From: Candidatus Lithacetigena glycinireducens | GTDB taxonomy: Bacteria; Coprothermobacterota; HKB111 | Reading direction: 5' to 3' | Assembly (NCBI GenBank): GCA_018725485.1 | Contig: QLUP01000072.1 | Location: 1-5,365, forward strand | Length of the DNA stretch: 5,365 nt | Part shown: piece by piece, positions 721-3,674 of the stretch | Position numbering within the stretch: the first letter of the stretch is position 1 | Layout: every line of letters begins with the position of its first letter | Made by a program: the position numbers and the translations under genes | Notes under the pieces: generated by a model | Databases searched by the model: none | What the model was told of the DNA's origin: nothing | What the model saw: the letters and a program-made list of their open reading frames with translations, nothing else

Positions 721-1500
721 CTAAAATAAATTACCCTGTCCACAATTTATACTTGATAACTCACAATACCTCTTTGATATATCAACCAAAATTGCCTTTC
801 TTTTTAATCTTTTTGCAACTACTCCTGTAGTTCCTGACCCAGCAAAGGGGTCTAATATAGTATTCCCAACATACGAATATAATTTTATTAACCTGTAAGG
901 CAACTCCTCTGGAAATGCCGCCGGATGATTTGATATTGCTTCTCTTGTAGGATGAATAGTCCAAACATTAGTTGAAAACCGTAAAAACTCTTTTGTTGTT
1001 ATATCAATTTTTTCTTTATCCCCTTCTAAATCATATTTTTCTTTTGACATTATTACGACATACTCTGAGCCATCTCGCAAATAAGGATTTGAGGGGCTTT
1101 TCCACGAACCCCAAGCCGTAGAATGACCAGGAACTACCCCACCCTCCATTTTAACCCAAGTAAGCCACTCCCTGTCAAGAAAACCAATCCTTCTTAGCAT
1201 AAGAGTTAAATCTAATGCTAGAAATGCTATTCTCGTATAGGTGTGTTGTTTAATACAAGAGGGAACATTTACGCATAACCTACCACCAGAAACCAAAACA
1301 CGATGACACTCCCTAAAAACATTTTCTAACATCTCAAAATATTTATTCATTGACATCCTATCATAATGATTATCATAACCAATTCCAGTGTTGTAGGGCG
1401 GTGAAGTAATTACTAAATGCACAGAAGCATCTTCAATAAAACTTAAATCTTGGCTATCAGTATTGTAAATTTTAATTAGGTCATCTTGATAATATGTCAT
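721..1500 (-). CDS. beta-class DNA amino-methyltransferase (N4-cytosine or N6-adenine)
   Basis: This 259-residue protein transfers a methyl group from S-adenosylmethionine to an exocyclic amino group in DNA. The catalytic motif IV, TSPPYN (32-37), precedes the cofactor-binding motif I, LDPFAGSGTT (216-225), which is the permuted beta-class order (N6_N4_Mtase family). FPEELPYRLIKL (196-207), just before motif I, fits motif X. VWTIHP (179-184) and the RDGSEYVVIMSK strand (142-152) are also typical. SPPY favours N4-cytosine, but family members with this motif can methylate adenine. Length is normal and no key motif is missing. The start at 1500 overlaps the upstream stop as ATGA, with GAGGGG six bases before it. 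It is followed by the nuclease-like gene. No target-recognition domain can be read by eye, so the recognition site is unknown. Confidence 0.92.
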   Translation of the reverse strand: MTYYQDDLIKIYNTDSQDLSFIEDASVHLVITSPPYNTGIGYDNHYDRMSMNKYFEMLENVFRECHRVLVSGGRLCVNVPSCIKQHTYTRIAFLALDLTLMLRRIGFLDREWLTWVKMEGGVVPGHSTAWGSWKSPSNPYLRDGSEYVVIMSKEKYDLEGDKEKIDITTKEFLRFSTNVWTIHPTREAISNHPAAFPEELPYRLIKLYSYVGNTILDPFAGSGTTGVVAKRLKRKAILVDISKRYCELSSINCGQGNLF

Positions 1501-1871
1501 TTTGTCCCCTCTATGTCTGGCAAAGGAATAATCCCATCAAATTCAATATCCTCCCCAACTGGCAAATTGCGAATTACACTCCTGAACCCTTCGCACTCGT
1601 TATATTGCTTAATGCATTTGTCAAGGGCAATTTTCTGCCCCCTGATTATACCCTCACCTGCTATGTTCTTTGCCTGCAACACTTCAACTGCCTGTTTGCA
1701 ATCCTTCAACTCTCTATTTAAGCGGGTGATATACATCGCTATTTGGCTGATAATAATTGCTATCATAAGACAAATGGTAATGGCGAAGAGAACCTTGAAA
1801 AACTTGTCCTCCATCCGATACCAGCGTTCCCTTGTATTCCTCCAAAACCTTTTTAACCTTCTACTCATCAT
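1497..1871 (-). CDS. small one-pass membrane protein with coiled coil
   Basis: This 124-residue protein has a very basic N-terminus (RRLKRFWRNTRERW), one hydrophobic segment at about 25-48 (KVLFAITICLMIAIIISQIA), and a charged helical stretch at about 50-92 that looks like a coiled coil. A short tail rich in Pro, Ile and Asp follows. Cysteines fall at 58, 86 and 93. Positive-inside reasoning puts the N-terminus in the cytoplasm and most of the protein outside. The shape resembles an inner-membrane spanin, but no lysis genes are visible, so I do not call it one. GGGAGGTGAAGG precedes tandem ATG codons at 1871 and 1868; I take the first, and the second lies at the same junction sequence used by the upstream paralogs. 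It overlaps the methyltransferase start by four bases. I recognise no family. Confidence 0.75.
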   Translation of the reverse strand: MMSRRLKRFWRNTRERWYRMEDKFFKVLFAITICLMIAIIISQIAMYITRLNRELKDCKQAVEVLQAKNIAGEGIIRGQKIALDKCIKQYNECEGFRSVIRNLPVGEDIEFDGIIPLPDIEGTK

Positions 1872-2310
1872 CCTTCACCTCCCTTGCGTCTCCTTCATCG
1901 CAACTTCCTTTCGGCATCTCCCATATAGAGAATGCTGTATGCTTTACTATATTCTCACCATCAAAATCCCTTATATCTTCCCCTGTATAATCCCCTGTAA
2001 ATACGGGAATAATCCATTCTTCATCCTTACTCTTTGAAATAGCAAGATAACCTGCCCCGTCACGGTAATATGCTTCTGGACAGATTTGAATAAGAAGGGC
2101 AAAAAGTTTTATGTCCCATTCCACCATTGCTTCCTTCCACTCTGTCCACACCTTTTCTGCCGTTATCTTATTTGACTCTGTCATTACCTTTCTCCACTCA
2201 GCCATTACCTCTTCCAACCTTGCTTCTAACAAAGGAAAACTCCTTTCCCCTAACCTGCTTATCTCGTCTCTTACTCTCCTTACCTCTTCAAGTGTGTAGT
2301 GTTTACTCAT
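1861..2310 (-). CDS. coiled-coil repeat paralog 3 (149 aa, unknown function)
   Basis: This is the third full-length member of a tandem family I do not recognise. It starts MSKHYTLEEVRRVRDEISRL, has heptad units at 30-69, then WDIKLF and a globular-looking part with CPEAYYRD (78-84), GYLAI (87-91), WIIPVFTGDY (99-108) and KHTAFSIW (123-130), and ends SCDE..DAREVKDDE. Five seven-residue units are visible plus one short five-residue unit (AEKVW, 51-55), which shifts the heptad register. The start at 2310 is supported by AAGGAGGT and by the eight-base overlap with the 44-aa gene. There is no signal peptide or membrane segment, so it is probably cytoplasmic. Unlike paralog 2 it keeps the central GYLAI/WIIPVFTG block, and it is the copy next to the membrane-protein gene. 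Confidence 0.85.
   Translation of the reverse strand: MSKHYTLEEVRRVRDEISRLGERSFPLLEARLEEVMAEWRKVMTESNKITAEKVWTEWKEAMVEWDIKLFALLIQICPEAYYRDGAGYLAISKSKDEEWIIPVFTGDYTGEDIRDFDGENIVKHTAFSIWEMPKGSCDEGDAREVKDDE
1868..1887 (-). repeat. junction repeat, copy 4 (RBS plus start)
   Basis: On the minus strand these 20 bases (GCAAGGGAGGTGAAGGATGA) are identical to 2858-2877. They hold the end of paralog 3 (AREVKD) and the ribosome binding site and start of the membrane-protein gene. A three-base duplication (GATGAT) after them makes this overlap 11 bases instead of 8. Confidence 0.85.
2104..2223 (-). repeat. heptad-encoding repeats in paralog 3
   Basis: The stretch encodes residues 30-69 as 21-bp units (ARLEEVM, AEWRKVM, TESNKIT, then AEKVW, TEWKEAM, VEWDIKL). 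Large hydrophobics sit at unit position 3 and smaller ones at position 6, a 3-4 spacing expected of a coiled coil. The fourth unit is two codons short. Confidence 0.6.
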
Positions 2311-2326
2311 CTTTTACCTCCTTTGC
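2302..2326 (-). repeat. junction repeat, copy 3 (RBS plus start)
   Basis: On the minus strand this 25-base junction contains AAGGAGGT followed by ATGAGTAA. It encodes the KEVKDE tail of the 44-aa gene and provides the ribosome binding site and start of paralog 3. It matches 2429-2453 at 24 of 25 bases. Confidence 0.85.
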
Positions 2327-2437
2327 CCCAAGCATTATTTTAACCAACTGCACATAATATTTTACTGCCTCCTTATCTGCCTCACTCCCAAATATCTTAA
2401 ACCACATACCTTTTAATTTATCATAGTATTTACTCAT
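2303..2437 (-). CDS. 44-aa gene with paralog-like ends, unknown function
   Basis: A short gene fills the whole space between paralogs 2 and 3. It begins MSKYYDKLKGMWFKIFGSEA, continues through KEAVKYYVQLVKIMLG and ends AKEVKDE. AAGGAGGT lies five bases or so before the ATG at 2437, and it overlaps both neighbours by eight bases (ATGAGTAA), which argues strongly that it is translated. The first five and last six residues match the paralogs because they are encoded by the shared junction sequence. The middle (about 33 residues) shows no clear similarity to them. It is predicted helical, with a hydrophobic, aromatic face. It could be a collapsed paralog or an unrelated small gene captured between two junctions; I favour the latter since no paralog core motif remains. 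Confidence 0.75.
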   Translation of the reverse strand: MSKYYDKLKGMWFKIFGSEADKEAVKYYVQLVKIMLGAKEVKDE

Positions 2438-2453
2438 CTCTTACCTCCTTTGC
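2429..2453 (-). repeat. junction repeat, copy 2 (RBS plus start)
   Basis: On the minus strand AAGGAGGT and ATGAGTAA join paralog 2 to the 44-aa gene. The KEVRDE tail of paralog 2 is the coding reading of the ribosome binding site. Differs from copy 3 by one base and from copy 1 (2853-2877) by four. Confidence 0.85.
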
Positions 2454-2861
2454 ATCTTCCTCATCACAACTTCCTCTCGGCATAGTCCATATAGAAAACG
2501 CTTTGTGCTTTATACCCTTCTCACGGTAATGTGCCTCCGGACAAACTGAAGTAAGAATATCAAAAAGTTTTATGTCCCACTCCGCCACTGCTCTATTCAA
2601 CTTTGCTTTTATCTCATCCAACTCTGCACCCATCTTGTCCCACTCCGCCACTGCCTTACTATACTCCGCCTTTGTCTCATACCATCCTACCCCTGTCTTG
2701 TTCCACTCTGCCATTGCCTTATCACACTCTGCTCTTGTCTTATTATACTTCGCCTCCATCCTATTCTGCTCCGCCTTCAACTCATCAAACCTCCTCTCAC
2801 CTAACCTGCTTATTTCATCTCTAACATTTTTTATCTCTTCAAGCGTGTAATATTTACTCAT
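2430..2861 (-). CDS. coiled-coil repeat paralog 2 (143 aa, longest repeat array)
   Basis: This member shares the N-terminus (MSKYYTLEEIKNVRDEISRL, GERRF) and C-terminus (KHKAFSIWTMPRGSCDEEDA, then KEVRDE) of the family. It has ten seven-residue units at 30-99, twice as many as paralog 1, such as AKYNKTR, AECDKAM, AEWNKTG and AEWDKMG. The GYLAI and WIIPVFTG segment found in paralogs 1 and 3 is absent: CPEAHYREKG (107-116) joins almost directly to KHKAFSIW. So the coil has grown while the following domain has shrunk. The start at 2861 is set by GGGAGGT and the eight-base overlap with paralog 1. It appears soluble. No known family is recognised; an oligomeric scaffold or binding protein is possible but unproven. 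Confidence 0.85.
   Translation of the reverse strand: MSKYYTLEEIKNVRDEISRLGERRFDELKAEQNRMEAKYNKTRAECDKAMAEWNKTGVGWYETKAEYSKAVAEWDKMGAELDEIKAKLNRAVAEWDIKLFDILTSVCPEAHYREKGIKHKAFSIWTMPRGSCDEEDAKEVRDE
2565..2774 (-). repeat. ten 21-bp units encoding heptads in paralog 2
   Basis: Residues 30-99 divide exactly into ten units of seven codons with the consensus A-E-W-x-K-x-x. Position 3 is Trp, Tyr or Leu in most units (Cys or Gln in two), and position 6 is Ala, Thr, Met or Ile. On the plus strand the units repeat motifs such as CACTCCGCCACTGCC (seen near 2580 and 2641). The divergence between units suggests old expansion rather than recent slippage. Confidence 0.8.
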
Positions 2862-2877
2862 CCTTCACCTCCCTTGC
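2853..2877 (-). repeat. junction repeat, copy 1 (RBS plus start)
   Basis: On the minus strand AGGGAGGTGAAGG precedes ATGAGTAA. It encodes the AREVKDE tail of paralog 1 and supplies the ribosome binding site and start of paralog 2, with an eight-base stop/start overlap at 2854-2861. Confidence 0.85.
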
Positions 2878-3252
2878 TTTATTTATATCGTAAATGTATT
2901 TCAAAATAGTCCATATGGAAAATGCTTTATGTTTCATATCTTTGTAATTCCCTGTAAATACTGGGATAATCCAATTCTCATTATCATCTTTGGGAATAGC
3001 AAGATAACCGTTCCAATCATGATAATGTGCTTCTGGGCAAATTGGAATAAGAAGAGTAAAAAGTTTCACATCCCATCCCGCTCTTGCTTTACTCCATTTT
3101 GCATGTGCCCTACCCCACTTTGCCCTTGCTTTACTTAACTTCTCCCTTGCTTTACTTAACTTCGCCTCCAGCTGGGGGAAACTCCTCTCCCCCAACTTGC
3201 TCACCTTATTTCTAATTGCTCTTACTTTTTTAAGTGTGTAATATTTACTCAT
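2854..3252 (-). CDS. coiled-coil repeat paralog 1 (132 aa, unknown function)
   Basis: First gene of the second operon. It has the family N-terminus (MSKYYTLKKVRAIRNKVSKL, GERSF), five seven-residue units at 30-64 (two of them near-identical KLSKAR units), WDVKLF, CPEAHYHD (72-79), GYLAI (82-86), WIIPVFTGNY (94-103) and KHKAFSIW (107-114), and ends AREVKDE. The SCDE motif of its sisters is replaced by ILKYIYDIN. I chose the ATG at 3252 because GGGGAGGAG lies just upstream and the N-terminus then aligns with paralogs 2 and 3. An in-frame ATG at 3324 lies within element R2 and has no such support. No known family is recognised. Helical repeats followed by a compact domain suggest a self-assembling protein, which is inference. 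Confidence 0.85.
   Translation of the reverse strand: MSKYYTLKKVRAIRNKVSKLGERSFPQLEAKLSKAREKLSKARAKWGRAHAKWSKARAGWDVKLFTLLIPICPEAHYHDWNGYLAIPKDDNENWIIPVFTGNYKDMKHKAFSIWTILKYIYDINKAREVKDE
3061..3165 (-). repeat. five 21-bp units in paralog 1
   Basis: The units encode AKLSKAR, EKLSKAR, AKWGRAH, AKWSKAR and AGWDVKL. A 19-base plus-strand string (CCCTTGCTTTACTTAACTT) occurs exactly at 3123-3141 and again at 3144-3162, one unit apart. This is the best sign of recent duplication in the array. Confidence 0.8.
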
Positions 3253-3311
3253 TTTTCTCCTCCCCTTTCTGCAAAACCCTATTAAAACCAAGAAAACCCC
3301 ACCAGACGCAC

Positions 3312-3337
3312 AAAAACCCCCCAAATTCGGGGATTTT
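3312..3337 (-). terminator. probable terminator of the replication operon
   Basis: On the minus strand AAAA-T-CCCC pairs with GGGG-T-TTTT around an eight-base loop with one mismatched position, and the 3' arm ends in five T residues. It lies about 90-115 bases after the stop of the zinc-ribbon gene. Compared with R1, both arms are one G/C pair and one A/T pair longer, so the stem is preserved. Confidence 0.5.
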
Positions 3338-3374
3338 GAGTTTTGTAGTTAAACACCCTATCCTGACCCCTTTT

Positions 3375-3396
3375 CGTTAAAATTTAACGGGTTTTT
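3375..3396 (+). terminator. plus-strand terminator-like hairpin in R2
   Basis: CGTTAA (3375-3380) and TTAACG (3384-3389) form six Watson-Crick pairs around AAT, followed by GG-G and TTTTT (3392-3396). The six pairs correspond one to one with those in R1 at 271-285. Confidence 0.4.
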
Positions 3397-3428
3397 ATGC
3401 ATCTGACAGGTATCCCAGAAAAAATCCC

Positions 3429-3674
3429 CTACTTATTTCTTATCCTTCCGCACACCAGACACTCCCCGTCTACCACTTCTTCTGCGTGTGCTCCGCAGGT
3501 GCAATGCCCACCTGCTTCCAACATTTCCCTAATCGTTTCAAGTCCTTCTCCCTGCTCTAATCTCTCGCTTTCACGCAATAGGGAGTTATCAACTACTGGT
3601 CGCTCTGGTGTAAAACGCGGCCCTGTTTCATATAATCCCATTACTCTAAAAACTTGTGCTGTTAAATCAAACAT
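3429..3674 (-). CDS. small zinc-ribbon-like protein
   Basis: This 81-residue protein starts MFDLTAQVFRVMGLYETGPR and has a charged helical middle (SLLRESERLEQGEGLETIRE). It ends in a probable metal site: HCTC (57-60), then ECLVC (71-75), that is C58-x-C60-x11-C72-x2-C75, with His57 and His63 nearby. Four cysteines in two close pairs are typical of zinc ribbons, although CxC in the first knuckle is less usual than CxxC. AAGGAGGAGG precedes the start at 3674, which overlaps the upstream gene by eight bases (ATGTTTGA). Last gene of the replication operon. A DNA- or protein-binding role is reasonable but unproven; I recognise no named family. Confidence 0.7.
   Translation of the reverse strand: MFDLTAQVFRVMGLYETGPRFTPERPVVDNSLLRESERLEQGEGLETIREMLEAGGHCTCGAHAEEVVDGECLVCGRIRNK

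Follow-up and report, generated by a model that had tools for sequence, protein, structure and literature searches.

A Coding Shine-Dalgarno Junction Is Repeated Along a Variable Paralogue Array in Candidate Phage Elements of Candidatus Lithacetigenota

In overlapping gene pairs of Escherichia coli, removal of the Shine-Dalgarno sequence (SD) usually cuts reinitiation by 60-90% (PMC6728339; PMC2784483). Repeated sequences next to gene starts are known from cluster K mycobacteriophages, where many non-structural genes carry a repeated phage-specific sequence, the SAS, at the position of the SD, with 17-bp inverted repeats upstream in about half of the cases (PMC3203893). For phage mosaicism, short conserved sequences at gene boundaries have been discussed as points of recombination (PMC3029335), and Red Gam recombines genes that are 22% diverged (PMC2327257). 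The locus described here touches on each of these systems: a single short junction recurs between the members of a paralogous gene array and joins unrelated genes as well.

The window, i.e., the whole stretch of 5,365 nt that was analyzed, is the entire contig C175 of a 1.24-Mb MAG consisting of 204 contigs. An MreB-like protein of this MAG is 93% identical to its counterpart in Candidatus Psychracetigena formicireducens, whose phylum, Candidatus Lithacetigenota, was described from serpentinite-hosted springs (PMC9751293). Among the genes on the minus strand of the window are those for a replication-initiation protein, a DnaC-like helicase loader, and a DNA methyltransferase, and because of their presence C175 is likely to be the early region of a phage or prophage. 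No structural gene was found on the 5,365 nt of the window; portal-like, capsid, and tape-measure genes lie on C1, a different contig and the largest that we examined in the bin. A search of the MAG using one array protein as query revealed homologues on three more contigs, C79, C151, and C132. The phage identity of all four array contigs is based on their replication genes and methyltransferases. The flanks of C132, C151, and C175 are roughly 75-85% identical to each other at the DNA level. All array copies come from this single MAG and represent at most four independent elements.

Table 1. Features of the array region in the window; coordinates on another sequence are marked.
Feature	Position	Strand	Basis
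Single-pass membrane-protein gene, array end	1497..1871	-	alignment across elements
Array gene D, 149 aa	1861..2310	-	orthologue C151_3949
Junction D/membrane protein, ATGATGAGTAG variant	1861..1887	-	sequence
44-aa gene, second small family	2303..2437	-	homologue in C151
Junction 44-aa gene/D	2303..2326	-	sequence
Array gene B, 143 aa, chimera	2430..2861	-	family alignment and breakpoint comparison
Junction B/44-aa gene	2430..2453	-	sequence
Array gene A, 132 aa, first in array	2854..3252	-	ORF, family alignment and pair comparison
Junction A/B, coding-frame SD and ATGAGTAA overlap	2854..2877	-	sequence
Leader SD of first array gene, GGGGAGGAGAAAA	3253..3268	-	non-coding upstream
Cys-rich gene, 81 aa, upstream of array	3429..3674	-	alignment; flank conserved in 4/4 elements
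Zn-ribbon-like ORF/array gene run-on (C151)	L010 894-1577 (5534-6217 on reversed contig)	-	reading frame

The first-pass annotation had reported four successive gene junctions made of nearly the same bases, and all four are present at these positions on the minus strand (Table 1). Each consists of a near-perfect SD (AAGGAGGTRARRG), which is read in frame as [KR]EV[KR]D, followed by an overlapping stop and start. The junctions at 2853-2877, 2429-2453, and 2302-2326 have the form GGAGGTRARRG-ATGAGTAA with an overlap of 8 nt (ATGAGTAA); the one at 1861-1887 reads GGGAGGTGAAGG-ATGATGAGTAG and overlaps by 11 nt if the membrane-protein gene starts at 1871 or by 8 nt if it starts at 1868. In 4/4 cases, GGAGG lies 11-16 nt 5' of the ATG and inside the upstream coding sequence. 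The corresponding proteins end in AREVKDE, AKEVRDE, AKEVKDE, and AREVKDDE. Thus, the proposal that the conserved tail is the coding reading of the next ribosome binding site, with the stop lying over the next start, was confirmed at every junction, and the same sequence does join the membrane-protein gene (1861-1887) and the 44-aa gene (2429-2453 and 2302-2326), as had also been claimed. Co-directional genes with a stop/start overlap likewise follow one another elsewhere in the arrays. The first array gene has an SD and start of the same type, preceded by non-coding DNA.

The conserved junction DNA is a near-perfect complement of the usual 3' end of bacterial 16S rRNA; a 16S gene was not found in the MAG. 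Allowing up to one mismatch, GGAGGTRARRGATGMGTA occurs at 17 sites in the 1.24-Mb MAG, and every one of them marks the start either of an array gene or of the membrane-protein gene that follows the array. The motif had no match in eight further genomes of the phylum, and the reversed control gave none either. The junction motif is therefore far beyond chance. Among 61 close co-directional gene pairs on about 125 kb of other MAG contigs, none carries the [KR]EV tail and 15 have GGAGG. Unrelated coupled genes upstream in the array-bearing elements end in KEVSDV, KEVSNV, and KEVSV, KEV being the obligatory translation of a full SD in that frame. In C151, an unrelated 66-aa gene precedes the membrane-protein gene and reads its SD in another frame, and GGGGAGGTGAAAGATGCGTAG is nonetheless kept. 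The double frameshift of C79_7676, which returns to frame at REVADE, was considered as evidence for coupling and set aside, because the gene would end at ATGA and still be coupled without the second shift.

Codon choice in the tail follows the use of the DNA as a ribosome binding site. The third base of the tail K/R codons is G in 19 of 19 cases, whereas the bodies of the genes have G in about half (P=2.7e-6), the glutamate codon is GAG in 18 of 19 (P=0.003), and GTR is found in 19 of 19 (P=0.007). The comparison of synonymous sites that the first-pass annotation had suggested is weakly positive: conservation is 0.79 in the tail and 0.65 in the body, but the tail windows are among the highest rather than unique. 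Alternatively, the EVKDE tail might be conserved for the sake of the protein, with the SD overlap being secondary. The two uncoupled copies point in this direction, as both keep AKEV; C79_5126 ends in AKEV-stop and C79_11334 in AKEVKDDIRV, where GAA replaces GAG, which is synonymous but disrupts the SD. Furthermore, REV forms the final strand in the AlphaFold model. Against this, the 44-aa protein ends like the main family without being related to it, unrelated coupled genes end in KEV, codon choice tracks the SD, and KDE is lost or changed where no coupled gene follows, which makes this reading improbable. Conservation of the tail in uncoupled proteins had been named as an argument against a role of the junction as a cassette, and the two available cases point both ways, with KDE lost or changed but AKEV retained. 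Because AKEV is kept in uncoupled genes and modelled as a terminal strand, SD use is not its sole constraint, and AKEV probably also has a role in the protein. Together with the codon bias, this suggests, tentatively and with two uncoupled cases, that AKEV is under both SD and protein constraints and KDE mainly under that of the coupled junction.

Flanking genes are collinear across the elements, and the array genes between them vary in number and order. C132 carries one copy, C175 three copies and the 44-aa gene, C151 five copies together with a 43-aa homologue of the 44-aa gene, a Zn-ribbon ORF, and the 66-aa gene, and C79 eight copies, with one further complete and one cut copy downstream. 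According to best between-contig matches, the order of shared genes is a-b-c-d in C175, b-d-e-f-c-g in C151, and g...e...a in C79. Array gene A matches the final array gene of C79 at 89% identity, and the C151 homologue of the 44-aa gene, 88% identical, occupies a different array position. The membrane-protein gene closes the array in 4/4 elements, with 78-81% amino acid identity to the window copy. Within this MAG, the four related elements thus show what had been predicted of a cassette, i.e., gene content and order that vary (1, 3, 5, and 8 copies, shuffled) while the boundary stays constant.

Several further features were noted around the arrays. An intergenic repeat of ~110 nt, with copies 77-80% identical, was found at 3285-3397 and 181-293 of the window, at L011 6123-6234, and at L010 3682-3766. 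It is exclusive to three element contigs, where it lies 5' of the array (C175, C132, and C151), with the second copy in C175. One copy folds better than shuffled sequences (z -2.3), and a terminator-like stem is present at 3318-3333 on the minus strand of the window. An RNA element upstream of the array was rejected, as folding is unconvincing save for that one copy and Rfam gave no match. In C151, the reading frame of the Cys-rich Zn-ribbon-like ORF continues into that of an array gene, possibly as a 227-aa fusion. Downstream of the membrane-protein gene in C79 (L009 8835-12728) are genes for a phage COOH-NH2 ligase type 2 (PF14395), a protein weakly resembling glutamine amidotransferases, and an R2K ATP-grasp ligase; two further array-family genes flank the ATP-grasp gene, one on each side. 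A gap between two array genes at L009 5560-5815 contains the short direct repeats AAAGTCAAAAGGA and GGGTGAATTTTGACGAA, and a QSxSGD-repeat protein is encoded at L011 6499-7032 between two genes that are adjacent in other elements.

Comparison of individual copies revealed mosaic genes. C175_2114 and C79_8073 share 68% identity over the first 75 nt and 93% thereafter (P=5e-8), and C79_6720 and C79_7174 show the reverse pattern, 95% followed by 72% (P=6e-6). Since mosaic pairs go in both directions, uneven conservation along the gene is ruled out as the cause. Array gene B (C175_2505) has a middle part close to C151_3459, reaching 97% identity at the start of the C-terminal domain, whereas at the domain end it agrees with C79_6720 (95% over the last about 66 aligned nt); its beta domain is partly deleted. 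Where breakpoints are clear, they fall within genes, close to the LGER motif and in the C-terminal domain. Among the array copies of the four elements, none was mapped to a junction, and none of the clade tests on the N-terminal 75-nt block was significant (p 0.13-0.30). The best junction-spanning tract was found in the neighbours C79_6720 and C79_7174, where an identical run of 78 nt extends from the preceding gene's tail across the N-terminus; exchange or duplication tracts therefore do cross junctions. Runs of 58 identical nt at the ends of genes were not used because they are an artefact of the overlapping flanks of neighbouring genes.

The 78-nt tract is also expected from ordinary tandem duplication or gene conversion, and the arrays could in principle have arisen by simple duplication alone, each new copy inheriting its junction without special selection. 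We regard this as quite improbable: copies are 20-30% diverged elsewhere and synonymous changes are near saturation in many pairs, yet the SD positions are fixed, and the codon bias of the tail already weakens the idea. At the other extreme, selection might keep the junction as short homology, a dedicated module for inserting or swapping any gene family. Unrelated genes do have 14-20 identical junction bases in common, the 44-aa gene occupies different places in C175 and C151, and C151 has gained the Zn-ribbon ORF and the 66-aa gene at its junctions. However, full use of the SD is sufficient to explain junction constancy, the located breakpoints are inside genes, and the identity between copies is often short (runs through the ATG have a median length of 10 nt), which is below usual homology needs. 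A dedicated module is thus unlikely. The original proposal that the junction both couples translation and serves as homology stands in so far as tail codons follow ribosome binding site use and gene order and number vary; that the junction itself is the site of exchange is a possibility, with the clear breakpoints inside genes and one 78-nt identical tract across a junction.

The array proteins form a family of their own. Orthologous pairs have dN/dS values of 0.15-0.40, and the copies are therefore working genes under purifying selection. The predicted structure (pLDDT 86) comprises N-terminal helices, a long heptad helix, and a small beta domain; modelled alone, the C-terminal domain was poor (pLDDT 69). 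The length of the heptad coil varies between copies, and coils of 29, 36, 50, 57, 64, and 71 residues all leave a remainder of 1 when divided by 7, with 8 of 18 copies off this series. Relatives outside the MAG were not detected in IMG/VR, GTDB genome contigs, INPHARED phages, or nine genomes of the phylum, and the C-terminal domain, the membrane protein, and the 81-aa flank had none in up to 290 genomes. Pfam gave no match above cut-off, PHROGs, NCBIfam, and PADLOC only weak coiled-coil matches, and a fold search of PDB and BFVD no match at E<=0.001. Matches by VIA-align (Z up to 6.5) were dismissed, as they cover the helical part only (residues 1-80) and are common for coils. As a guess, the proteins might act as oligomeric, interchangeable adaptors or binders in the early phase of phage infection.

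The junction, the codon bias of its tail, the variable gene number and order between collinear flanks, the mosaic genes, and the purifying selection are directly visible in the DNA. They are probably best accounted for by a translationally coupled paralogue array in phages of Candidatus Lithacetigenota which expands and shuffles by homologous recombination. The dual-coded junction, AAG/AGG GAG GTR AAR GAT GAG TAA, would provide the end of one gene and the SD, spacer, and start (ATGAGTAA) of the next, and a ribosome finishing one gene would restart on the following one in the cell. With the same overlap at both ends of every gene, recombination could add, remove, or replace whole genes and leave the frame intact. 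The exchange presumably proceeds by homologous recombination in the phages, and the junction together with the conserved N-terminal 75 nt would supply some of the homology. C7, a separate contig of the bin, carries genes for a RecT-like annealing protein and an exonuclease. More speculatively, the array may serve to generate diversity: the frame-preserving junction would let the coiled-coil family grow, shrink, and reshuffle between co-resident phages, with coil steps largely of 7 residues (21 nt), giving each phage its own set of binders or adaptors.

With this locus, the phages of Candidatus Lithacetigenota gain a protein family that had not been described. It is also a compact natural case in which one short stretch ends a protein, acts as a ribosome binding site, and joins two genes, and the four co-resident elements illustrate how such a joint keeps a gene array rearrangeable with the frame kept. 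As in known termination-reinitiation coupling (PMC6728339; PMC2784483), stop and start overlap and the SD lies inside the upstream coding sequence, but here one junction is repeated along a paralogue array and shared with unrelated genes, and the overlap is 8 nt (ATGAGTAA) instead of the common 4 (ATGA) or 1 (TGATG). Like the SAS of cluster K phages (PMC3203893), it is a repeated, start-adjacent, phage-specific sequence, with its 17 sites all at starts of the array cluster; in contrast, the SAS (consensus GGGATAGGAGCCC, here AAGGAGGTRARRGATGAGTAA) is found on unrelated right-half genes and does not encode the end of the preceding gene. Similar to the boundary sequences discussed for phage mosaicism (PMC3029335), a constant short sequence separates exchangeable genes, but this boundary has an evident translational function and the located breakpoints are inside genes. 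The 22% divergence tolerated in Red-type recombination (PMC2327257) is about that of the array copies, and the MAG has a candidate RecT-like protein. Coupling by SD overlap is already known; the unusual point here is that it recurs throughout a reshuffled, mosaic paralogue array, unrelated genes included, in several co-resident elements.
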